Below, one piece after another: positions 324 to 22,687 of a stretch of 33,265 nucleotides of DNA. Both the position numbers and the translations under genes were made by a program. The notes under the pieces are model-generated. The model was given only the letters and a program-made list of their open reading frames with translations, was not told where the DNA came from and searched no databases. Position 1 is the first letter of the stretch. Every line of letters starts with the position of its first letter. Origin of the DNA: Acidobacteriota bacterium (GTDB lineage: Bacteria > Acidobacteriota > B3-B38 > Guanabaribacteriales > JAGGZT01); assembly GCA_021161905.1 (NCBI GenBank), contig JAGGZT010000057.1:1-33265 (forward strand). The letters are read 5' to 3'.

Positions 324-3300
324 ATGGGATCGAGTAAAGGGACAAGAAAAATAAGCTCCATCGGAATAAAGAGAGGAGGTATACTTTTCATTACCCTTCT
401 TCTCTTTGTTTTAGGGATAGTGAGCATCTACAACCGAATGACCTACCGTGAACCGACCGATGGTGCTTCTTGGATATTTGGAGAAGAGACCACTCCCACC
501 CTTGAAGTACACCAAGGAAGCCCTGCCTTCAAAGCTGGTCTCAGAACCGGGGACAAGCTCCTTGCGGTAAAGGGAACGATCAAAGAAAAAGGAGGAACAA
601 AGAAAGAGGTTTTCTTCAGTTCCTCACTTCCCGATAGGATCAACTACACCTTCATTAAGGAAAGGGGAAAACCGGTGATACTCGCCGAAAAACTTCCCCG
701 TCCCGAGGACGCGAGGAAGATACTCTTCCAATTCAAGCCCGGCGATAAGGTGGAATACACCGTTTTAAGGAAAGGAAGGCTGATTCGGGCGAAGCTCACC
801 CTGGGGGGGATACCTCTTACCAACAATAACGCCTTCTTATATCTCTCATTCGTAGGGATATCGTTCTTCGTTGTTGGGATCTCTGTCTTCCTGAGGCGGG
901 GACCAGCCGTTCCTGGGAGCTACCACTTCTTCCTCCTATCGCTCCTTTTCTTCATTCTGTTCACCTATTCACCGACCATCTATTCTGGATGGTTGGACAA
1001 AACGATCTATTGGCTGGATGAGAGCTCTCGGCTATTTCTGCCCCCTCTTCTCCTCCACTTCTTCCTCCTCTTTCCCCAGAAACGACTCCCTTCAGAAAGA
1101 AGGAGGAGGCTTCTTCCCTTGCTCTACGCCCCAGCAATCTCTCTCTTCTTGAGCCATCTCATCCTGATGAATTTCAATCGACTCTCTAAAGGTGAATTGG
1201 TCCGGCTCAATCGCCAAATGATGGTCCTCTCCCGAGTAGAGCTGGTTCATCTTGCTCTTTTCTTCGGACTTTCCATAATTGTCCTCCTTAAAACCTTCCG
1301 CATTGCCAAGGACTTCGTGGTGAAGAAACAGGCGAAGTGGATGCTCTCCGGCATCACCGTTGGGTTTACCCCCTTCATCCTCATCTATATTCCCTCCTTC
1401 CTCCTCAACCGAGCCAGTGAGCTTGTCACCTTCTTCTCCATTATTCCTCTGGCGATCATTCCTATCTCCTTTGCTTATGCTATCATCCGCTATCGGCTTA
1501 TGGATATCGAGGTGCTCCTCAAGCGGGGGATGGTATTCGGCCTTGCCATCGGATCGGTGATGGGTCTTTATCTCCTTCTTATAAGCCTTTTCTCCCGCAT
1601 ATTCACTGGGGTGGAGCCGGAGATCCTCTCTCTCATTACCTTCCTTACCACCCTGTTGGTAGCTATCCTGTTCGCTCCACTGAAGAGGGGGATCGAGCAC
1701 TATCTCGATCGGCTATGGTACCGGGAGAAGTACGATATCAGGGCTACCCTAAGGGAGTTCACCTACGAACTGAGCTCTGAGGTAGACCTTGAGAGACTGC
1801 TCTTCCGGCTAAAAAGCAGGATCGCTGGACTCCTCGAGGTATCGTCGGTGGCGATCTTCTTAAACGATGGGGAACGATTTTCTGAGGTTCATCCTGAGGG
1901 AAAACAGGAACCTATCGTTCTCAGCAAGGAGTTCTCCCATTATCTCTCCCGAACCCTCATCGGAAGAGATTACATCCTTTTCCCTGAGCTCTCGGACGAC
2001 GCGAGGTATCTGGCTGATGAGAGGAAATTAGCGGAGGAGGAGCTCCTCTACCTCGTACCCCTGACCACCAAGGGAGAGCTAATAGGAATGATCGCTTTAG
2101 GAAGGAAGGAACGAAATGACCTCTTGAGTTCAGAAGACCTTCAGCTTCTTTCCCTTATAACTACGCCGGCAGCGATGGGCATAGAGAACGCCCTCCTCTA
2201 TCAAAACTTAAGACAGAAGATAAAGGAACTTTCTCAACTCAAGGAGTACCATGAGAATATCGTGGAAAGCGTGAACGCTGGCGTTCTGGTCATCGACCCC
2301 GAAGGAGAGATAGTGAGTTGGAACCGGAAGCTGAGCGAGATATATGGGCTTAGCCGTAAGGAGGTAATGGGAAAGAAGATAACCGAGATATTCCCTAAGG
2401 AGTTCCTCTCTCAAATATCTGGTTTTCTCGGCAAGAACGGATGGCGCTCTCGAGAGATAACCAACCTCTATAAACTCCGCCTCCCTACCCCAAAGGGAGA
2501 GGAGCGAACGGTGAGTGTTTCGGTAGCGCCACTTCTGAGCAAGGAACGAGATATATACGGAAAAGTTTTGATCATTGACGATATCACTGAGAGAGTGACA
2601 CTGGAAGAACAACTGGCTCAATCGGAAAGACTCGCCTCTCTCGGCTTCCTGGCAGCAAGCGTTGCCCATGAGGTCAACACCCCTCTCACCGGTATTGCCA
2701 GCTATACCCAGATGTTGCTCCGTAAACTCCCACCGGATGACCCCAACACCGAGCTACTAAAGAAGATGGAAAAACAGGCATTTCGCGCCTCACAGATAGT
2801 GAACAATCTCCTCAATTTCACTCGGAGGAAGGAGCCATCGTTCCGCCCCGTGGATGTAAACCGGGTAATAACCGATACCCTATCCCTGCTTGACCATCAA
2901 TTAAGAAACGCGAACATAAAGCTAAAGTTGGCTCTCAAAGAGGACATCCCTCCAACCTATGGTGACGAGGGGAAACTGCAACAGCTTTTCTTAAACCTCC
3001 TAATAAATGCCAAGGAGGCAATGCCCCGGGGAGGAGAATTGGGGATAAGTACCAACAATGTCAACTCTTCGATCATAGTCAACATCAGAGACACTGGTAT
3101 GGGGATACCTGAGGAGAACCTGAATCGGATATACAAACCCTTCTTCACTACCAAGGAGAAGAAGGGAACGGGGCTTGGGCTCACCGTTTGCTATGGCATT
3201 GTTCAGGAACATCTTGGTTCGATCTCAGTGAAAAGCGCGCCTGGAAAGGGAACCAACTTCAGTATAAAATTGCCGATTTACCGGAGGAGAAATGAACAGG

Positions 3301-3326
3301 AAGGAGAAAATATTAATCGTAGATGA
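324..3326 (+). CDS. Membrane sensor histidine kinase (PDZ-like, multi-TM, GAF, PAS, HisKA, HATPase)
   Basis: This 1000-residue two-component sensor starts at ATG 324. A first membrane helix (about 19-37) is followed by an extracytoplasmic PDZ-like region (about 55-165, with the motif GSPAFKAGLRTGDKLLAVKG). A bundle of six to eight membrane helices follows (about 169-450). The cytoplasmic part holds a GAF domain (about 475-630), a PAS domain (about 640-765), a HisKA domain with phospho-acceptor His782 in HEVNTPL, and a HATPase domain with the N box at Asn895, then DTGMGIPEE and GTGLGL. The layout (TM, PDZ-like loop, TM bundle) resembles ComP-type sensors. All kinase motifs look intact. The 3' end overlaps the NtrC-type regulator by 35 bases, so the two are an obvious cognate pair. 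The ligand is unknown; a signal sensed at the membrane or periplasm is inferred. Confidence 0.92.
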   Translation: MGSSKGTRKISSIGIKRGGILFITLLLFVLGIVSIYNRMTYREPTDGASWIFGEETTPTLEVHQGSPAFKAGLRTGDKLLAVKGTIKEKGGTKKEVFFSSSLPDRINYTFIKERGKPVILAEKLPRPEDARKILFQFKPGDKVEYTVLRKGRLIRAKLTLGGIPLTNNNAFLYLSFVGISFFVVGISVFLRRGPAVPGSYHFFLLSLLFFILFTYSPTIYSGWLDKTIYWLDESSRLFLPPLLLHFFLLFPQKRLPSERRRRLLPLLYAPAISLFLSHLILMNFNRLSKGELVRLNRQMMVLSRVELVHLALFFGLSIIVLLKTFRIAKDFVVKKQAKWMLSGITVGFTPFILIYIPSFLLNRASELVTFFSIIPLAIIPISFAYAIIRYRLMDIEVLLKRGMVFGLAIGSVMGLYLLLISLFSRIFTGVEPEILSLITFLTTLLVAILFAPLKRGIEHYLDRLWYREKYDIRATLREFTYELSSEVDLERLLFRLKSRIAGLLEVSSVAIFLNDGERFSEVHPEGKQEPIVLSKEFSHYLSRTLIGRDYILFPELSDDARYLADERKLAEEELLYLVPLTTKGELIGMIALGRKERNDLLSSEDLQLLSLITTPAAMGIENALLYQNLRQKIKELSQLKEYHENIVESVNAGVLVIDPEGEIVSWNRKLSEIYGLSRKEVMGKKITEIFPKEFLSQISGFLGKNGWRSREITNLYKLRLPTPKGEERTVSVSVAPLLSKERDIYGKVLIIDDITERVTLEEQLAQSERLASLGFLAASVAHEVNTPLTGIASYTQMLLRKLPPDDPNTELLKKMEKQAFRASQIVNNLLNFTRRKEPSFRPVDVNRVITDTLSLLDHQLRNANIKLKLALKEDIPPTYGDEGKLQQLFLNLLINAKEAMPRGGELGISTNNVNSSIIVNIRDTGMGIPEENLNRIYKPFFTTKEKKGTGLGLTVCYGIVQEHLGSISVKSAPGKGTNFSIKLPIYRRRNEQEGENINRR

Positions 3327-4677
3327 CGAGCCGGATATGCAGGAAGTATTGGAGACCCTCCTCAAGTCGGAGGGTTATTTAATAGACACCGCCTCCTCCG
3401 GCAAGGAGGCGCTTTCCAAGCTATCTGAGGAGATCTACGACCTGGTCATCCTGGATGTGATGATGCCGGAGATGGACGGGATCGAGACCCTAACCAAGAT
3501 AAAAGAGGAGGACCCAGAACAGGTAGTAATAATGATCACCGCCTACGCCTCGGTAGAGAACGCCATCGCTGCGATGAGGAAGGGGGCGTTCGATTATATA
3601 ACGAGGCCCTTCCGCAACGAGGAGATCATCCTCACGATAAAGCGGGCGCTCGAACAGAAGAGACTTACCGAGGAAAATCGTGCCCTCCGCCGACTGCTTC
3701 GAGAAAAATATAGCTTCCATAATATCATCGGTAAGAACAAAAAGATGCTCAAGGTATTTCGCCTAATCGAGCAGGCAGCGCCATCGAAAAGCACTATCCT
3801 CATCCAAGGAGAAAGCGGTACGGGAAAGGAGTTGGTCGCGGTTGCCATCCATCAGCTCAGCCCCCGGGCGAACAAGCGGTTTGTGGTGGTCAATTCGGGG
3901 AATGTTCCCCCAGACCTCCTCGAGAGCAACCTTTTTGGCCATGTTAAAGGAGCATTCACCGGCGCAGTAACCGCCAAGAAAGGACTGTTTGAGGTGGCTA
4001 ATGGGGGAAGCATCTTCTTCGACGAGATAGGGACGATAAGCCTTGAGACACAGGCGAAATTACTCCGGGTGATCCAGGAGAAGGAGTTTATGCGTCTCGG
4101 CGGGGTGGAGACGATAAAGGTTGATGTCAGGATCATTGCTGCTACCAATGTGGACCTGAAGAAGGCAGTGGAAAAGGGCGAATTCAGAGAGGACCTCTAC
4201 TACCGAATAAATGTTATCACCATAGAGCTACCTCCACTCAGGGAAAGGAAGGACGATATACCGCTTCTCGTGCGTCACTTCATCGATAAATACTCCAAGG
4301 AGAACAATAAAGAACCTTGCGAGATAACCGAGCGAGCGCTTGAATGCCTAATCAACTACAATTGGCCAGGGAATGTGCGGGAGTTGGAGAATGTAATCGA
4401 ACGGGCGGTAGTGCTCAACACAAAGGAGAGAATAGATATCAACCTCCTTCCGCACTACATCGTACACCCCAAGATCGAGGTGCCCATCCCCATAGATATA
4501 CCACCGGAAGGGATATCCTTCAGGGAGGTGGTGGACGAGTTCAAGAAGACCCTCATAGTGAAATCCCTCCAGATGGCGGGAGGGGTGCAGAAGAAAGCAG
4601 CCGATCTCCTAAAACTCAAGCCAACCACCCTGAGCGAGATGATAAAACGCTATGGGATAACGAACGAGGAAAGCTGA
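3292..4677 (+). CDS. NtrC-family sigma-54-dependent response regulator
   Basis: This 461-residue activator has the full NtrC layout. The N-terminal receiver domain has acidic pocket Asp11-Asp12, phospho-acceptor Asp55 in LVILDVMMPEMDG, and the conserved Thr and Lys further on. The AAA+ domain has Walker A GESGTGKE near residue 173, the sigma-54 contact loop GAFTGA at about 220-225 and Walker B FFDEIG near 243. A Fis-type helix-turn-helix at about 425-461 reads AADLLKLKPTTLSEMIKRYG. An intact GAFTGA loop implies that it opens RpoN promoters and that the genome encodes RpoN. It is translated in overlap with the sensor kinase upstream, which presumably phosphorylates Asp55. Its target promoters cannot be identified with confidence in the window. 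Confidence 0.96.
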   Translation: MNRKEKILIVDDEPDMQEVLETLLKSEGYLIDTASSGKEALSKLSEEIYDLVILDVMMPEMDGIETLTKIKEEDPEQVVIMITAYASVENAIAAMRKGAFDYITRPFRNEEIILTIKRALEQKRLTEENRALRRLLREKYSFHNIIGKNKKMLKVFRLIEQAAPSKSTILIQGESGTGKELVAVAIHQLSPRANKRFVVVNSGNVPPDLLESNLFGHVKGAFTGAVTAKKGLFEVANGGSIFFDEIGTISLETQAKLLRVIQEKEFMRLGGVETIKVDVRIIAATNVDLKKAVEKGEFREDLYYRINVITIELPPLRERKDDIPLLVRHFIDKYSKENNKEPCEITERALECLINYNWPGNVRELENVIERAVVLNTKERIDINLLPHYIVHPKIEVPIPIDIPPEGISFREVVDEFKKTLIVKSLQMAGGVQKKAADLLKLKPTTLSEMIKRYGITNEES

Positions 4678-4685
4678 GATTATTA

Positions 4686-5438
4686 TCAGAGGATAGGAAC
4701 AACCATCCCATCTTCAGCCAATATCACCTCACGGGAGAATTCCCTCTTAACCTCTCTTAGAATGGGGGAGCGATCGACAACGGGATAAAAGTGGGTAAGA
4801 AGCAGTACCTTAGCAGAAGCCTCACGGGCTATTCTACCGGCAAGGGTTGGGGTTAGATGACCTGGTTCCTTCTTTCCTTCAGGGAAGGAGCATTCAAGGA
4901 CAAGGAGATCGGCTTCTTTAGCTAAACTTACTATCTCCTCACAATAATCGGTATCCCCGGAGTAGACCAGGCTTTTTCCCCTTTTATCGGTAAACCGGTA
5001 GGCAAGGCTTGAATCGGAATGGAGAACCGGACTTATCTTAAGACTGAAGTTATCAAAGGAGAGCTCTCCCCGCTCTGCCTCGATCAGCCTAATACCTACC
5101 CCTTTGGGGACGATCAATTCCTTATATATCTCTCTCAGCCCCTGCCACAACTCGGGAAGCCCAGGAGGACCGATAACAGTAAGGGTAGGAATGGAGAAAA
5201 CACCGGTCCTGAGAGCGAAGAGAAGGGGCACCAGGTCAGCGATGTGGTCGGGATGGAAATGAGAATAGATGAGAAACCGCAGGGAGGCAAGAGGAAGGCC
5301 GAGTCTCCCTAACATCCGGAGGCTTCCCGAGCCAGTGTCGATCAATATCAACTCCTCTTCCACTATCAGGGCAAGCCCGGGAGAGCCCCTTCTCGGAGAA
5401 GGAAGAGCACATCCGGAGCCAAGGATATAAAGCTTCAT
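4686..5438 (-). CDS. Metallo-beta-lactamase-fold hydrolase, RNase Z-like
   Basis: This 250-residue protein of the metallo-beta-lactamase superfamily starts LYILGSGCALPSPRRGSPGL, as RNase Z-like and related phosphodiesterases do. The metal ligands are present: His60-x-His62-x-Asp64-His65 in SHFHPDH, a histidine in VLHSDSS near 139, the Asp in YSGDTDY near 161, and later His residues in GHLTP and LTHFYP. It has no signal peptide and should be cytosolic. Possible activities are tRNA 3' processing, cyclic-nucleotide phosphodiesterase or a general phosphodiesterase. The typical RNase Z exosite arm is not obvious, so I do not call it rnz. It runs convergently to the regulator with only 8 bases between stops and divergently from the ispH fusion. 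Confidence 0.88.
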   Translation of the reverse strand: MKLYILGSGCALPSPRRGSPGLALIVEEELILIDTGSGSLRMLGRLGLPLASLRFLIYSHFHPDHIADLVPLLFALRTGVFSIPTLTVIGPPGLPELWQGLREIYKELIVPKGVGIRLIEAERGELSFDNFSLKISPVLHSDSSLAYRFTDKRGKSLVYSGDTDYCEEIVSLAKEADLLVLECSFPEGKKEPGHLTPTLAGRIAREASAKVLLLTHFYPVVDRSPILREVKREFSREVILAEDGMVVPIL

Positions 5439-5478: not shown

Positions 5479-5507
5479 CCTTTCCAACTGAGGAAAAGGG
5501 GGAATCG

Positions 5508-7259
5508 ATGGCAAAGTGGCGACTTATATTGGCAAAGAAGGGCGGCTTCTGTATGGGGGTGAAGCGAGCGGTGGATATCGTTCTCGCAGAGGCAGAGAGA
5601 GCAGATGGGGTAATCTATACCGATGGACCCCTCATCCACAATCCCCAGGCGGTAGAGGTACTCAAAGCAAAGAGGGTATATCCCCTCTCAGACCTTGCCC
5701 AGGCAAAGGGGAAAAGGGTGATCATTAGAACCCATGGCATCAGCCCAAGGAGAAGAAAGAAGCTGGAAGAGCTCGGGGCAAACATCTGCGACGCCACCTG
5801 CCCTCGCGTCTCTCGGATACATAAGATAATAAGGGAGCATGCCGAGAAGGGATGCACCGTAGTAATCATTGGGGATAAGGGACACCCCGAGGTAGCTGGG
5901 CTCCTCGGCTCTGCCAGAGGGAGGGGAGTAGTGGTGGAAGAGGAAGCCGATTTCGCCTCCCTTCCCAATAAGGGGGAAACGAAACTCTGTATCGTCGCCC
6001 AAAGTACCCAGAGTAGGGAACGCTTCCACCACTTGGTTAAAAAAATAAAGGAGCGGTATCCAGACGCCGAGATATTCGACACCCTCTGCAACTCCACTGC
6101 CGAGAGACAGGAAGAGGTCCGTAAAATTGCGGGTGAGGCTGATGTGGTAATTGTGGTTGGGGGGAGGAACTCCGCTAATACCAAACGACTGTTCGAGATA
6201 GTAAAGGAGGAAGGAAAGCCCGCTTACCTCGTGGAGACGGAAGAGGAGATAACTGAGGCTATGGTTACTCCTTTTTCCGCGATAGGTATTGCTGCTGGAG
6301 CCTCTACCCCCAAATGGATGATCGAACGGGTGGTGAACCGAGTGCGGGAGATAAAGCTGAGGCAACTTTCTCCTCTCCTTGCTGCCTTTCTCTTCTTCCT
6401 TCGCTTCCTCACCAAGGGGAACCTTTACACCGCCATCGGAGTCTTCTTCCTCACCTATGGAAGCGCCCGCCTCTTAGGGATCGAACCATCATTCACCTCT
6501 ACAGCTATCGCTTCCCTCTACATTCTCTCGATCCATCTTCTCAACTACTATACCGATCCTGAGGGGTTAAGGCTTCTGGGACAGATATCGGAGGCGAGCT
6601 ATTACATCCGTTATCGCACCCCCCTCCTTGCCACCGCCCTCATCTCCGCCTTATCCTCGCTTGTCCTCGCCCTTACCAAGGGGGGGCTCACCTTCCTTCT
6701 CCTTCTTGCTGCCATCTTCCTTGGCATCCTTTACGGAATAAGAATCCTCCCCCCTTCGATAAGCCGTATCCTCAAATTTGGAAGGTTGAAGGACATCCCT
6801 ACCTCTAAGGATATCTTCGCCTCCCTTGGTTGGGGAACGGTGGTGGTCCTCCTTCCAGTGATCGGAAGTAGGAATAAACTCTTCTCGCCCGCCCTTTTGT
6901 TCACCTTCCTCTATGTGGCGCTCCTTGCCGCCATTCGTTCCATTATGTTTGACATAAAAAACATCCGGGCGGACAGGATCACTGGAAGGGAAACCATACC
7001 CTCCACCATCGGGGAGAAGAAGACCAAATCGCTGCTTATCTTCCTGCTCCTACTCGCCAGCTTGGACCTTCTCCTCTACTTTGCCCTCTTTGGAAATTTC
7101 CTCGCTCTCGTTCTTCTAATCCCGTTAGGATATGCCTCCCTTTACCTATTCCTCCATCAGAGAGGGCTCCTCCGACGGGATATAGTCTTCTCCCTGGTAG
7201 TTGATGGTAAGTTCTACCTGGTGGGGATACTTGCCTATCTACTGGGCGGGGGAAGCTAA
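5508..7259 (+). CDS. ispH: IspH (HMBPP reductase) fused to a UbiA-like membrane prenyltransferase domain
   Basis: Residues 1-285 are a complete 4-hydroxy-3-methylbut-2-enyl diphosphate reductase, the last MEP-pathway enzyme, making IPP and DMAPP with a 4Fe-4S cluster. The cluster cysteines are Cys15 (GGFCMGV), Cys98 (DATCP) and Cys194 (TLCNST). His44, His76, His126, Glu128 and Thr167 are the expected substrate residues. Residues from about 290 to 583 are about eight hydrophobic helices unlike IspH. They carry a UbiA-like first motif Asn346-x3-Asp350 and a second motif DIKNIRADR with Asp482 and Asp489, followed by Gly-Arg-Glu-Thr-Ile-Pro, as in UbiA enzymes. Both motifs are slightly degenerate: the third acid of motif 1 is missing and Asn485 stands where Asp is usual. 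The frame is unbroken from 5508 to 7259. The prenyl acceptor is unknown. It overlaps the convergent methyltransferase by 3 bases. Confidence 0.93.
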   Translation: MAKWRLILAKKGGFCMGVKRAVDIVLAEAERADGVIYTDGPLIHNPQAVEVLKAKRVYPLSDLAQAKGKRVIIRTHGISPRRRKKLEELGANICDATCPRVSRIHKIIREHAEKGCTVVIIGDKGHPEVAGLLGSARGRGVVVEEEADFASLPNKGETKLCIVAQSTQSRERFHHLVKKIKERYPDAEIFDTLCNSTAERQEEVRKIAGEADVVIVVGGRNSANTKRLFEIVKEEGKPAYLVETEEEITEAMVTPFSAIGIAAGASTPKWMIERVVNRVREIKLRQLSPLLAAFLFFLRFLTKGNLYTAIGVFFLTYGSARLLGIEPSFTSTAIASLYILSIHLLNYYTDPEGLRLLGQISEASYYIRYRTPLLATALISALSSLVLALTKGGLTFLLLLAAIFLGILYGIRILPPSISRILKFGRLKDIPTSKDIFASLGWGTVVVLLPVIGSRNKLFSPALLFTFLYVALLAAIRSIMFDIKNIRADRITGRETIPSTIGEKKTKSLLIFLLLLASLDLLLYFALFGNFLALVLLIPLGYASLYLFLHQRGLLRRDIVFSLVVDGKFYLVGILAYLLGGGS

Positions 7260-12110: not shown

Positions 12111-13517
12111 TCAGAACTTCACCCCAGCACCGAAGAAGAACTGACGGTAATCCTTGACCCAGAAATCGTCATACCCGCCGGCTAAGAAGAAGCGACGGGT
12201 AGGGAAAAACCTGGTGGTGAACCTCAGATGTGGTCCCTCATTCCTTAAGAGATCAAAGCTATCGAAGCTGAGAAGAACCCTCCCCCCAAGGGAGAGGTCG
12301 GTTCCCACTCCTATCTCCGACTCGATCAGCCCACCGCGGAGGGAAAAGGGACCAAACCTCCTACCAGCTAAAACGGAAAAGGAGAAACCTCGCTCCCTCT
12401 TTGTCCGCTCGATGGTGGTGGTAGTACTACCATCACCGCTTACGGTGTTCACCCATTCGGTGGAATGGTATCTCTTTCCTATCTCGTCATCGACCAACTC
12501 CAGCCGGACAAAGCCCTTAGCCGAACCCAACTCCAAGGTGAAGTAGTTCCTTAAACCATCATCATTGGCGAAATATAGACTACTCACTCCAAAGGAAAGG
12601 TTCACCTTTTCCATCCCGGCAAGGGTGCCCCTCACCCTCCTTATCACCTCATGGGTATCGGAGATAGTATCCTTCACCTTCTGTTTGGTATCCTCTCCCA
12701 TCAAAAGCTCTCCTACAGTTCCCTCACCTTGGTTTATCTTCTTAAGAAGTTCATCCAAGGTGGCAATAAGGGAATCGAGCCGGGCGGAGAGCTTCTTCAT
12801 ATTCTCCACACTCTCTTGAATCTCGCTTCGGTTTTCCTCAACCGCATTCTTGAGCTCAAAGGTGAACTCCCGGAGATTAACCACTATCTCCGGTATCTGC
12901 TCCCTGAGATCGGAAGATATCATCTGGGCGTTATCAAACATCTGATCCACCTTGGGCTTATTGGTGGTGGAGAGCTCCCTTGCCAGTCTATTCAGATGAT
13001 CGAAGGTCTCGAGGAAACTCTGCCACTTCTTCTTACTTTCCTCAGAGGCGATCAACCCCCTAATATGCCCCACCGTTTCCCCTACATCAGCAGCTATCGA
13101 ATTGAGCACCGATACGATCTGATCCATCGAGGTTGGAGGCTCACCATAGATCATATCCCCATCGTTGAGATAGGGAGCATTTATGGGACCAGAGGTAATC
13201 TCTACATACTTCTCGCCGAGAAGCCCTATGGTACCCACCGCCGCTCTTGCCCCCCGGTGGATCTTCACATTCTGCTTGACGAACAGGGTCACCTCTACCC
13301 CTCGATCCGTGAGGTTCATCTTCTCCACCTCACCTATCCGATACCCAGCCAACCTCACCTCAGCACCTTCTATTAAACCGGCAACCATAGGGAACACCGT
13401 TCGCAGATGATAGCCCTTCTTCCTCATCCAGGGTAATTCCCCCGAGCGGACGAGAAGGTAAGCCAAGATAACCAAAGCCAATACTACAAAGACCCCTACT
13501 TTTAATTCTCTCTTCAT
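12111..13517 (-). CDS. mlaD: MlaD-family MCE protein with a beta-barrel-like C-terminal extension
   Basis: This is the periplasmic MCE subunit of a phospholipid/lipid transporter. A single N-terminal helix (about 8-23) is followed by the MCE domain (about 35-125, with LIEGAEVRLAGYRIGEVEKM and VGTIGLLGEKYVEI). A long helical region of about 165 residues, which would form the central tunnel in LetB- and PqiB-like assemblies, comes next. From about residue 300 to 468 the sequence becomes strand-rich with many Phe, Tyr and Gly and ends FFFGAGVKF with a terminal Phe. E. coli MlaD has only about 180 residues. The extension looks like an outer-membrane barrel (inference), so the protein might span the periplasm. 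The mlaE-mlaF-mlaD order is normal; mlaC and mlaB are not in the window. Confidence 0.9.
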   Translation of the reverse strand: MKRELKVGVFVVLALVILAYLLVRSGELPWMRKKGYHLRTVFPMVAGLIEGAEVRLAGYRIGEVEKMNLTDRGVEVTLFVKQNVKIHRGARAAVGTIGLLGEKYVEITSGPINAPYLNDGDMIYGEPPTSMDQIVSVLNSIAADVGETVGHIRGLIASEESKKKWQSFLETFDHLNRLARELSTTNKPKVDQMFDNAQMISSDLREQIPEIVVNLREFTFELKNAVEENRSEIQESVENMKKLSARLDSLIATLDELLKKINQGEGTVGELLMGEDTKQKVKDTISDTHEVIRRVRGTLAGMEKVNLSFGVSSLYFANDDGLRNYFTLELGSAKGFVRLELVDDEIGKRYHSTEWVNTVSGDGSTTTTIERTKRERGFSFSVLAGRRFGPFSLRGGLIESEIGVGTDLSLGGRVLLSFDSFDLLRNEGPHLRFTTRFFPTRRFFLAGGYDDFWVKDYRQFFFGAGVKF

Positions 13518-13535
13518 CCTTCTCTCCCTAAATAA

Positions 13536-14285
13536 TTACTCCAAGGTGGGGATTGGTCCCTCTGCTCGCCCATTAATGAACTGTTGAACCACCGGATTAG
13601 CTGAATTCCTTATCTCCTCGGGAGTCCCCTCCTCTATTATCCTACCACCGTAGAGCATCGCTATCCTATCCGCTATTTTATAGGCGCTTACCATATCGTG
13701 GGTGATAGCTACAGAGGTGACTTTAAGCTTGTTCTTAAGATCAACAATCAAGTTGTTAATCACATCCGCCATTATGGGATCAAGCCCGGTGGTCGGCTCA
13801 TCGTAGAGGATTATCTTCGGTTTCATCGCGATCGCCCGGGCGAGCCCCACCCTTTTCTTCATACCTCCGGAAAGCTCCAAGGGGTAAAGTTCCTCCACAT
13901 TGGACAAACCCACCATCTTCAAGCATTCCCCAACTCTATCCTTTATCTCTTCCTCGGTCATATTGGTGTGATGGCGTAAACCAAAGGCAACATTCTCGAA
14001 AACATTGAGGGAATCAAAGAGCGCTGCCCCCTGAAAGAGCATCCCGAACTTCTTCCGCACCTCGTTCAACTCCTTCTCTTTCATATTATCTATCCTCACC
14101 CCGTCTACATAGACCTCCCCTCGGTCGGGCTTCAATAACCCAATGATGTGCTTGATCAAAACCGTTTTCCCGGAACCACTTCTACCGATTACCACCACCG
14201 ACTCCCCTTCAGCTACCTCAAGATTCACCCCACAAAGGACACAATTACCCCCAAAGGACTTATGGATATCAACGAGCTTTATCAC
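13536..14285 (-). CDS. mlaF: MlaF, ATP-binding subunit of MCE lipid transporter
   Basis: This cytosolic ABC ATPase powers the MlaE permease. Visible motifs are Walker A GRSGSGKT (34-41), Q-loop MLFQGAALFDSL, signature LSGGMKKR near 139, Walker B IILYDEPTTGLDP and the switch His in AITHDM. The FQGAALFDSLNVFENVAF segment and the post-signature sequence are typical of the MlaF/Ttg2A subgroup. The start is GTG at 14283-14285. It lies 12 bases after mlaE ends and 18 bases before mlaD, so the three are co-transcribed. Confidence 0.96.
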   Translation of the reverse strand: MIKLVDIHKSFGGNCVLCGVNLEVAEGESVVVIGRSGSGKTVLIKHIIGLLKPDRGEVYVDGVRIDNMKEKELNEVRKKFGMLFQGAALFDSLNVFENVAFGLRHHTNMTEEEIKDRVGECLKMVGLSNVEELYPLELSGGMKKRVGLARAIAMKPKIILYDEPTTGLDPIMADVINNLIVDLKNKLKVTSVAITHDMVSAYKIADRIAMLYGGRIIEEGTPEEIRNSANPVVQQFINGRAEGPIPTLE

Positions 14286-14297
14286 TTCCTCACCCCG

Positions 14298-15044
14298 CTA
14301 AAATAGTATCTTCCCTAAGAAGAAGTCCAAAATGAGGATGGATAGGGAGGCGAAAACGACCGAGCGATTAGTAGCCCTCCCTACCCCTTCAGCGCCACCC
14401 TCGGAATAAAACCCACAGTAACAGGCGATGATAGTGAGCGACATCCCGAAGACACCCGCTTTGATCAATCCATTGGTGATATCGGAGATGTGGAGCATAG
14501 TAAAGGTATTTTGAATATAGACGGTAGGGTTCGTCCCGAAAAGATACACGCTAACTAAGTAACCGCCCAATATCCCCAAAGCATCGGTGTAGATGGTGAG
14601 TATAGGAAGCATAACGAGACCAGCAAGAAACCGGGGCACGATAAGGTATTTAACCGGATTGGTCGCCATAGTGGTTAGAGCGTCTATCTGCTCAGTAACC
14701 CGCATCGTCCCTATCTCAGCTGCCATCGCCGAACCCGCCCGTCCCGCCACCATCAGGGCGGTAAGCACCGGTCCCAACTCCCTGGTAACCGAGAGAGCAA
14801 CCACTCCCCCAAGGATACTCTCCGCCCCGAACCGCTGAAAACTGGTGTAGGTCTGAAGAGCAAGGATCATTCCGGTAAAGGTCCCCGTGATGCTCACCAC
14901 CATCATCGAATTTATACCTACCTCCTCCATTTGGGCGAATATAAGCCGTCCATAAAGGGGGGGGCGGAATATCCAGCCAATGGTATCAATGAGGAGAAGG
15001 AACAACCTCCCCATCTCCTCAAAGAAGTTGGTGATCCCTTTCAT
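14298..15044 (-). CDS. mlaE: MlaE-family permease
   Basis: This 248-residue permease has an N-terminal amphipathic interfacial helix followed by about five membrane helices. Diagnostic MlaE sequences are present: the elbow GRLIFAQMEEVGINSMMVV, TRELGPVLTALMVAGRAGSA, ELGTMRV-like EIGTMRVTEQIDAL, and the C-terminal GFYSEGGAEGVGRATNRSVV. It forms the membrane channel of the MCE transporter with MlaF. The direction of lipid flow cannot be read from sequence. It starts 6 bases after dnaB ends. Confidence 0.96.
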   Translation of the reverse strand: MKGITNFFEEMGRLFLLLIDTIGWIFRPPLYGRLIFAQMEEVGINSMMVVSITGTFTGMILALQTYTSFQRFGAESILGGVVALSVTRELGPVLTALMVAGRAGSAMAAEIGTMRVTEQIDALTTMATNPVKYLIVPRFLAGLVMLPILTIYTDALGILGGYLVSVYLFGTNPTVYIQNTFTMLHISDITNGLIKAGVFGMSLTIIACYCGFYSEGGAEGVGRATNRSVVFASLSILILDFFLGKILF

Positions 15045-17700: not shown

Positions 17701-19395
17701 TTAAAAGAAAGAACCATACCTCGCAACGAGCATCACAACAAACAAAGTAAAAAGAGCGGTAAGCTTCATCAAATTAAGCACCGCCGGCGCTGCCACCCGA
17801 GCAAGGGGAGAACCAACGATGGCTCCGTCCGTCGCCCCCTTGAGAGAAAACTCATCCTTCTTTTCCCCTTCAGCTACCGCCTTAGCCGCCTGCTCCCAGG
17901 CTCCTCCTGAAGCGAACATCATCAGGGCGATGAGAATACCAGAAGCAAAGAGGCCAAAAAGCATCCCCCCAAGCGCACCCCTACCGAGAAGAAACCCGAC
18001 CAAGGGTGGAAAGATAAGGGCGAAAACAACGGGAATAAGCGCCCTTCTTCCGGCATAGGAGGCAAGGGAAGAAACCTTAAGGGCTTTTCCCGCCTCATCA
18101 CGGCGGGCAAGTCTGCTCACCCCGGAAAGGACCGAGGAGACAAAGAAAAAGCTTAAGGCACCACCAGCAAATAGCCCCACCACCACCTTGGCGCTTATCA
18201 CGCTTACCGCCACCATCTGGGCGATCACCGGGTAGGCGAAAATGAGGGAGAGAACAGCTAATGAAGAGGAAAGGAAAAACCACCCCCAGCTGCCTCTGCC
18301 TCGAGGCAGACTATCCTCCACCGCCTCGACAAGCGAGATGAAAGAGAGCGAAGGGGCAAGCAGGGAAAGGGAAAGAGCGGAAAGAGCGATCCCGAAAGAG
18401 CCAGCAAGGCGATAGGAGAGATAGCCGAGAAGAGAAAGGAGCAAGATGGGATAGAAGGTGCTTCCTAAGCCCAAGGCGAACCCAGTTATGATATTGGTGG
18501 CGGAGCCGGTCCTGCTTGACTCAACAAGCTTACCAACGCTCCTTCCTCCAGTGTAGTAACGAGCAATAAAGAAGGAAATCACTCCAAAAAGAATAGCAAC
18601 GAGGAGCACCAGAAAATAACTCCGGGAAAGGGAGAGATAACGACAGAGGAAGAAACCGCCGATGAGGAAGAGAAGGGGGGAGACCAAAATGTTCACTAAC
18701 ACCTTTCTTCGGGAGATATAGGAAAGGATAAACCCCACCACTCCGCTTCCTACCCCAAGGAGAACAAGTGAGAGGAGAAACGGAAGGAGAGAGCCTCTCG
18801 CCGGCTCTGCCAGAAGAAGAAGATAGGAAGCGGCAAAGGAAGCAAACAAGGCTTCAAACGGTTCCACCACCGTAGAGAAAGCCGATCCCCTTCGGGAAAT
18901 AGAGGGGGAAAAGCCCCCGGCAAGCCTCGCCCCTTCGCTAAGAATGCCCTTTCCTATCCGGAAAAAGGAGAAAAGGAGCACCAGAGAAAGAGCCAAGACA
19001 AAAAGGAGTACCCCCTTCCCCCCAGAAAATAAGCGGAAGGTGAGAAATAGGAAAAGGAGGGAGAGGAATCCACCAACCAAAGCCAAGAAATACCCCTCCT
19101 CCACCTTATAGAGGATCCCTCTTTCCCCTATAAACAAGAAAAGTACTGCCAAAAGAACGCCTAAAAGGAAACCGAAAATCGGGGTAGCCCCTTTAGCTAA
19201 GAAGATGACGAAAGCCACTACCAGAGCAACGGGGATAGAGATGAAAAACGCCCACTTCCCCCCATTTAGAGAAGCATCAATGAAATAAGCCTCCTCCTTG
19301 ATCCTCTCTCTATCCCTCAATCTAAAATAGAGGATGATCGAGGATATGAAACCCACGATACCCGATATGAGACCGATAAGGATTAAGTTAGGCAT
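17701..19395 (-). CDS. Degenerate membrane pyrophosphatase (HppA-like) probably without catalytic activity
   Basis: This 564-residue protein with about 14-16 membrane helices aligns along its length with H+/Na+-translocating membrane pyrophosphatases, which normally have 660-800 residues. Family landmarks are GFLLGVLLAVLFLFIGE, RIGKGIL (near 142), YYTGGRSVGKLVESSRTG and SATNIITGFALGLGSTFYP (near 279-315), PPLVGFLLG, and ASGGAWEQAAKAV (near 493). The catalytic parts are missing. After GKGIL the Lys/Asp-rich KAADVGADLVGK and DNVGDNVGD segments are replaced by a shorter non-acidic stretch. The DAYGP...DNAGG block is lost. The final GDTVGDPFKDT is replaced by GAIVGSPLARVA. Pyrophosphate and metal binding should therefore be impossible. 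Overlap with pth is 8 bases, with a strong AAAGGAGGAAGAG site. The frame is clean, so it is a conserved coding gene, not a pseudogene. Its role is unknown. Confidence 0.85.
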   Translation of the reverse strand: MPNLILIGLISGIVGFISSIILYFRLRDRERIKEEAYFIDASLNGGKWAFFISIPVALVVAFVIFLAKGATPIFGFLLGVLLAVLFLFIGERGILYKVEEGYFLALVGGFLSLLFLFLTFRLFSGGKGVLLFVLALSLVLLFSFFRIGKGILSEGARLAGGFSPSISRRGSAFSTVVEPFEALFASFAASYLLLLAEPARGSLLPFLLSLVLLGVGSGVVGFILSYISRRKVLVNILVSPLLFLIGGFFLCRYLSLSRSYFLVLLVAILFGVISFFIARYYTGGRSVGKLVESSRTGSATNIITGFALGLGSTFYPILLLSLLGYLSYRLAGSFGIALSALSLSLLAPSLSFISLVEAVEDSLPRGRGSWGWFFLSSSLAVLSLIFAYPVIAQMVAVSVISAKVVVGLFAGGALSFFFVSSVLSGVSRLARRDEAGKALKVSSLASYAGRRALIPVVFALIFPPLVGFLLGRGALGGMLFGLFASGILIALMMFASGGAWEQAAKAVAEGEKKDEFSLKGATDGAIVGSPLARVAAPAVLNLMKLTALFTLFVVMLVARYGSFF

Positions 19396-21655: not shown

Positions 21656-21729
21656 TGGCTGGGGCGGGAGGATTCGAACCTCCGCACCGGGTTCCAAAGA
21701 CCCGTGTCCTGCCACTAGACGACGCCCCA
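21656..21729 (-). tRNA. tRNA-Gln (anticodon UUG)
   Basis: The minus strand folds as a complete tRNA. The acceptor stem TGGGGCG pairs with CGCCCCA, the anticodon stem-loop CGGGT-CTTTGGA-ACCCG gives anticodon TTG (Gln), and the T arm is GGAGG-TTCGAAT-CCTCC. The discriminator base is G and the CCA end is encoded (21656-21658). The position between ispE and prs is common in several phyla. Confidence 0.96.
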
Positions 21730-21802: not shown

Positions 21803-22687
21803 TCACTTCCAATCCTTAAACATACGCTTCACATACTCATCACGCAAAAGAGGCGTCGTTAGAAAAACACGCATCCTCTCTTTAAAAAAAGCCACCGCCT
21901 CTACCGCCTCCTTCCGTTCCGAAAAAAGACCAAAAAGGGAAGGACCACTTCCCGACATCAACGCCCCCTTTGCCCCCTTCCTCCTAAGTTCCTCCTTTAA
22001 GGAAGAAAGCTCGGGGAAACTCTTTTCTACCACCCTCTCCAAATCGTTAAAGAGCAAAATCTCTTTCTTCCCCTCACCGAGAAGAAGCCCATTCATATTA
22101 ATTTCTTTCCTCTTCCTTGTCAACAGCTTATCGTACTCATTGTACGCCCAAGCAGTACTAATTTCAAAATCCGGGGAAAGAAGAACAATATAAGGAAAAG
22201 GAAGGGAAAATTCCAAAGGACGAAGCTCGTCCCCTCTGCCAGACCCCAAAACCGCTCCCCCCATCAGGAAAAAAGGGGCATCCGCCCCGAGAAGACGAGC
22301 AAGGGGAAACAATTCCTCCTTCGATAACCCTACATCGAAAAGCCTGTTCATCCCAAGGAGAACCGTAGCTGCGTTACTACTTCCCCCAGCCAAACCGGCG
22401 GCAAGAGGGATCCTTTTTTTGATCTCTATCCGTACCCCCAACCTGATCCCCACCCTGTCCAAAAAGAGCTTTGCCGCCTTCACCGCCAAATTCCGCTCAT
22501 CGACAGGAAGACGGGGTTCGTTTGAGGAGAACTCTATCCCTTCCTGCCTCCTCTCTATCGTGATTAGATCACAAAGGGAGATGGTCTGATAAAGGGTTCT
22601 TATCTCGTGGTAACCATCATCCCTTTTCTCGCCCACCTTTAAAAAGAGATTTATTTTAGCAAATGAGCAAAGTTCTATCCTTTTCAT
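21803..22687 (-). CDS. ispE: IspE, 4-diphosphocytidyl-2-C-methyl-D-erythritol kinase
   Basis: IspE phosphorylates CDP-ME in the MEP isoprenoid pathway. This 294-residue GHMP kinase has substrate motif FAKINLFLKVGEKRDDGYHE, the glycine-rich ATP loop PLAAGLAGGSSNAATVL with the catalytic Asp before RVGIRL-type sequence region (GADAPFFLMGG), and the third motif KGALMSGSGPSLFG. Its start overlaps the LolB-like gene by four bases (ATGA), indicating coupling. With the ispH fusion and the polyprenyl synthase it is one of three isoprenoid genes in the window. Confidence 0.97.
   Translation of the reverse strand: MKRIELCSFAKINLFLKVGEKRDDGYHEIRTLYQTISLCDLITIERRQEGIEFSSNEPRLPVDERNLAVKAAKLFLDRVGIRLGVRIEIKKRIPLAAGLAGGSSNAATVLLGMNRLFDVGLSKEELFPLARLLGADAPFFLMGGAVLGSGRGDELRPLEFSLPFPYIVLLSPDFEISTAWAYNEYDKLLTRKRKEINMNGLLLGEGKKEILLFNDLERVVEKSFPELSSLKEELRRKGAKGALMSGSGPSLFGLFSERKEAVEAVAFFKERMRVFLTTPLLRDEYVKRMFKDWK

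Follow-up and report, generated by a model that had tools for sequence, protein, structure and literature searches.

What does a UbiA-like membrane domain do when it is carried on the same chain as IspH, the enzyme of the last MEP step, and does it still transfer prenyl groups? The question is raised by a gene in a 33,265-nucleotide stretch of an Acidobacteriota genome (contig JAGGZT010000057.1, below called the window), in which positions 5508-7259 (+) form one open frame of 583 amino acids without internal stop. The initial annotation read this single frame as a complete IspH followed by a UbiA-like membrane half, and our analysis bears it out: C15, C98 and C194 are all present, and both Pfam families are matched in one protein, PF02401 over residues 7-279 with 305 bits and PF01040 over residues 374-557 with 51 bits, above its cut-off of 34.2. 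The features on which the discussion relies are the following.

5490..5504, +, purine-rich, ribosome-binding-like stretch preceding the ATG start (by eye)
5508..7259, +, ispH::ubiA fusion gene, 583 aa, ATG start, single frame, stop codon within the end coordinate, kept in relatives
5526..6344, +, IspH (LytB) domain, residues 7-279 (PF02401, TIGR00216)
5550..5552, +, Cys15, presumed first [4Fe-4S] ligand (sequence; a pattern search recovers its motif in 116 of 118 fused frames)
5799..5801, +, Cys98, presumed second [4Fe-4S] ligand (conserved in 87 of 87)
6087..6089, +, Cys194, presumed third [4Fe-4S] ligand (conserved in 87 of 87)
6357..7256, +, UbiA-fold membrane half, residues 284-583 (PF01040, predicted structure)
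6543..6569, +, degraded first aspartate motif, N346 to L354, canonical form NxxxDxxxD (profile alignment)
6732..6734, +, Tyr409, probable counterpart of AfUbiA Y139 from its position at the end of TM4 (110 of 118)
6807..6809, +, Lys434 in a P-x-S-K patch, putative diphosphate contact (109 of 118)
6951..6974, +, second aspartate motif, D482 to D489, with Asn instead of Asp at 485 (alignment)

A frameshift or stop at 6360-6400 would split the gene; we looked for one and found the frame open throughout. A frame, assembly or sequencing fault at the junction is ruled out, since the same fusion is conserved in relatives: it recurs in 6 of 59 other genomes and in all 80 loci kept from a contig profile search (the best 80 of 581). 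Altogether, 7 of 60 genomes close to the window, its own counted, have a match that runs along both halves, and in 46 others the match covers the IspH half or a part of it. Each of the 80 loci is one frame, 507 residues or longer, that contains both halves; among them are records named Nitrospirae, Nitrospinae, Candidatus Brocadia, Scalindua and Jettenia (anammox Planctomycetota), Desulfobacterales, Syntrophaceae, a Chitinivibrionales and others. A single-sequence scan of the genome contigs matched 87 stretches, none of which was confirmed. As a kind, the IspH-UbiA fusion is already published, and the window is a new member from another phylum. Rao et al. 2015 (PMC4746011) named 47 such fusions, primarily from Desulfobacterales and, in the passages that treat them, 'all' in sulfate reducers, which overturns the earlier remark that no such case is known to have been described. 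In the same passages the function of the UbiA half is called unknown, and the half is thought to be active because of its two DXXXD motifs. Judged from listings, the literature on the fusion beyond Rao et al. gave nothing further on point, and in a search for UbiA pseudoenzymes no paper came up.

How regularly the membrane half travels with IspH was assessed with a UbiA-half profile at 1e-10, scoring at most seven candidates per genome. Of 297 genomes searched in each case, 36 in the window's phylum and 116 in the phylum to which a Desulfobacca record belongs contain a match. Only 8 of the 155 matches (counted by hand over both phylum searches) lie in frames shorter than 500 aa; four of these are at or near a contig end, and the four left are G226, G334:C6, G390 and the fragment G063:C132. 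IspH was confirmed in eight weak matches of at least 525 aa, and the fusion of most other matches is judged by frame length only. Close relatives of the UbiA half thus appear almost always fused to IspH. In a tree of the IspH halves, with 56 fused and 21 unfused rows left after thinning, all fused halves, also those of Desulfobacterales, fall to one side of a branch with SH-aLRT 88 (not starred) and the unfused ones, all from the window's phylum, on the other. Since the unfused IspHs compared are those of a single phylum, the tree fits one fusion origin followed by wide spread and does not prove it.

The IspH half is very likely a working enzyme. TIGR00216 (ispH_lytB, NCBIfam) matches with 286 bits against a cut-off of 187.85, and Cys15, Cys98 and Cys194 are present, which we take from family knowledge to be the ligands of the [4Fe-4S] cluster. 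Because the start codons of the 87 aligned rows were set by rule, leaving some rows without their first residues, C15 was checked separately in 118 fused frames, and the two frames with variants of its motif still retain the Cys. Since no protein but the fusion matches PF02401 in the genome, which is rated 100% complete and has both IspG and DXR, the N-terminal half is very probably the cell's working HMBPP reductase, converting HMBPP to IPP and DMAPP.

The other half has, by prediction, a UbiA fold. AlphaFold2 models the whole fusion with a mean pLDDT of 91.4 (input alignment of 40 fusions), and the C-terminal half alone with 92.9 and nine long helices. With the predicted structure, Foldseek places structures of IspH first and those of UbiA next (4od5, E 5.6e-5), and VIA-align matches A. 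pernix UbiA (4od4) with Z 20.9 and rmsd 3.0 over 259 aligned residues, the best soluble prenyl synthase being well below at Z 15.7. A C-terminal half with a fold unlike UbiA, which would have spoken against the initial annotation, is ruled out by these two matches. At the level of sequence, no specific UbiA equivalog of NCBIfam comes near its own cut-off for this half, and a PDB sequence search with it gave no true match, only two chance ones.

It is in the metal site that the window protein departs from active UbiA enzymes. By profile alignment, N346 and D350 are the equivalents of AfUbiA N68 and D72, and D489 that of D202, with N485 at the position of D198 and L354 at that of D76. The altered residues pointed out earlier, Asn485 for Asp and one missing acid, are therefore real, and the doubt attached to them, whether the membrane half has a different substrate or is only an anchor, was the right question. 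In the passages of PMC4106721 that deal with these sites, AfUbiA N68, D72, D198 and D202 bind two Mg2+, without direct binding by D76; GPP binding is abolished when N68 or D72 is changed, and changes at all four equivalents in EcMenA kill or nearly kill function. The window protein thus retains three of the four direct Mg2+ ligands (N346, D350, D489), and matches neither the first motif NDxxDxxxD of active enzymes (N346, D350, L354) nor the second, DxxxD (N485xxxD489).

The same departure is seen across the family. We compared 118 fusions, comprising the window, 6 from nearby genomes, the best 80 of 581 and two further sets of 23 and 8, with rows of identical IspH domains left out; in the eight weakest members the residue positions depend on the alignment. 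The strict NxxxDxxxD is present in 1 of the 118, and a looser form of motif 1 in 13. Among 24 unfused UbiAs, most of which come from genomes that also have a fusion, the looser form is present in 23, the remaining one being without its N-terminal part; in a strict count the motif is found in 15 of 23 unfused UbiAs (one of the 15 doubtful). The looser pattern is the fair comparison, because MenA- and CtaB-type proteins use motif variants. Site by site, N346 is retained in 89 fusions, Asp350 in 50, Asp354 in 16, Asp485 in 85 and Asp489 in 115; all four direct ligands are kept together in 16 and all five sites in none. The erosion is to be weighed down at 354, the counterpart of AfUbiA D76, which PMC4106721, where it treats this residue, describes as without direct Mg2+ binding. 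Along the tree of the IspH half (56 fused rows), at least 11 changes occur at Asp350 and at least 9 at Asp485. What speaks against a dead domain is that Y409, P431, S433, K434, R477, D489, G493 and E495 are each kept in 103 to 117 of the 118; among the polar ones, Y409 is found in 110, K434 in 109, R477 in 103, D489 in 115 and E495 in 109.

These counts bear on the reading of Rao et al., of the Rosetta-stone type, that the UbiA half is an active prenyltransferase, fed DMAPP by IspH or downstream prenyl diphosphates and acting on some acceptor. The 16 fusions with all four ligands argue for it, as do the motif-2 DxxxD retained in 84 of 118 and the near invariance of Y409, K434 and D489; the 16 are also the reason why the extreme statement that all members are dead enzymes is in part rejected. 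The five Nitrospirota/Nitrospinota members nearest the window's order (L036, L037, L054, L064, L065) retain all four ligands, while two members of that order itself (G001, G002) have lost the Asp at both 485 and 489, so the window stands between an intact and an eroded state. With three ligands in the window and four in its nearest group, activity is possible for this branch. Gene clusters in Syntrophales add to this side, with neighbours that we take, naming them from reading the sequences, to be ispA-, dxs- and tlyA-like. Against it, the full first motif is absent in 117 of 118, the site changes repeatedly on the tree, and several fused members retain next to nothing of it. We regard an active enzyme as rather unlikely, and classical prenyl transfer by the UbiA half as doubtful.

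If no transfer takes place, the half could be a mere anchor or spacer that holds IspH near an electron donor or prenyl synthases. The fusion indeed persists in L150, L151 and L154-L156, where nearly the whole site is gone, with the IspH half fully conserved, and membrane tethering is the sole property common to all fusions. However, K434, R477, D489 and E495 are among the most conserved residues of the half and would be needless for a bare anchor, which makes this reading improbable. In L155 and L156 the membrane half lacks nearly every residue of a UbiA site, the near-universal Tyr included. Two unfused UbiA-like proteins, L147 3369-4283 (-) and L153 3538-4788 (-), show by eye a degraded motif 1 and a DxxDxxxD-like motif 2.

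The explanation that we prefer, with about an even chance of being right, is that the protein is an HMBPP reductase on a nine-helix UbiA-fold tether, in which the prenyl-diphosphate pocket is retained and the metal site eroded, and which most likely binds prenyl diphosphates or passes them on instead of carrying out ordinary Mg2+-dependent transfer. Provided that IspH is active and lies on the cytoplasmic side as supposed, IPP and DMAPP would be produced at the membrane's inner face, where the UbiA half would tether the enzyme. The pocket, with N346, D350, Y409, K434 and D489, would still accept prenyl diphosphates, and the half would most likely bind them or pass them on, with transfer weak or absent; as the metal site is eroded, this would be likelier than classical Mg2+-dependent transfer. 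In most fusions the pocket is retained and ordinary transfer probably lost. So strong a conservation of pocket residues would, however, suit an enzyme of unusual substrate as well.

Besides the fusion, the genome has three separate UbiA proteins, one of them MenA-like (L003, scoring below curated cut-offs) and one similar to decaprenyl-phosphate phosphoribosyltransferase. Given the separate MenA-like protein and the other UbiAs, the cell can probably make menaquinone without the fusion, and the UbiA half is unlikely to be the genome's menaquinone prenyltransferase. A partner gene common to all fusion neighbourhoods was sought and none was found; neighbours vary by group, and include what we take to be DUF3842-like genes in Desulfobacterales and a DUF502-like gene in anammox bacteria.

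In the window, a PAS/GAF histidine kinase followed by an NtrC-type sigma-54 response regulator (324-4677, +) is directly upstream of the fusion, and a metallo-beta-lactamase-fold hydrolase (4686-5438, -) adjoins it, with a similar neighbour, by sight only, in G001 and G002. Consecutive MlaD-, ABC- and MlaE-type lipid transport genes are present at 12111-15044 (-). A GHMP kinase (21806-22687, -), perhaps IspE of the same pathway as a guess of ours, is located beside a tRNA (21659-21729) and a ribose-phosphate pyrophosphokinase. In addition, a divergent membrane pyrophosphatase of 564 aa (17701-19395, -) is matched by PF03030 in two stretches with 128 bits; by eye it has SRTGSATN and lacks the GDTxGDP-type motif of working enzymes. 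A full canonical membrane pyrophosphatase is found elsewhere in the genome (862 bits), and similar divergent ones, in frames of 642-644 aa at 30-31% identity, in G001 and G003. The divergent protein is possibly an inactive paralogue.

The family-wide erosion of the motifs is what this study adds to the published kind, and it bears on the function of the membrane half. Most fusions are without an intact prenyltransferase metal site, yet close relatives of the half almost never occur without IspH, which changes the question to be asked. Should the membrane half prove to sense prenyl diphosphates or hand them on, the MEP pathway of sulfate reducers, anammox bacteria and other groups would have a direct control point there.

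Among known systems, the closest are the fusions of Rao et al. (PMC4746011), which in the passages devoted to them share the order of IspH and UbiA-like half, the predicted membrane location and a separate UbiA or MenA in the organism. Unlike in that account, as far as those passages go, the fusions here are also found in records named Nitrospirota, Nitrospinota and anammox Planctomycetota, and nearly all of the fusions compared have an eroded motif 1. The IspH-RPS1 fusions of clostridia are alike in having an N-terminal IspH with a C-terminal partner in anaerobes, but that partner, an S1 protein, binds RNA and is no membrane domain. With ApUbiA (4od5) and AfUbiA (4tq3/4tq4) the window protein shares the fold, the nine helices and the motifs at the ends of TM2 and TM6, and differs in its incomplete motif 1 and the Asn for one motif-2 Asp. 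The last comparison is with human UBIAD1, which is described, in the relevant parts of PMC9579336 and PMC9314443, as sensing GGPP while bound to HMG-CoA reductase. By analogy, the UbiA half might be a built-in prenyl-diphosphate sensor that adjusts IspH; the eroded metal site with a conserved pocket, on the same chain as the pathway's last step, would suit it, as would the UBIAD1 precedent, but that precedent works via protein degradation and not by a fused domain, and we give the sensor only a slim chance. A similarly long shot is the broader proposal that IspH-UbiA is a widespread class in which a prenyltransferase was turned into a tethered sensor or acceptor pocket, its ligands lost repeatedly and its pocket kept, so that downstream products would tune the last MEP step at the membrane, as a one-chain bacterial counterpart of UBIAD1-HMG-CoA reductase. 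The likeness is one of arrangement only, a UbiA-fold protein attached to an isoprenoid-precursor enzyme, whereas the eukaryotic pair consists of separate chains, is regulated by sterols and involves another enzyme.
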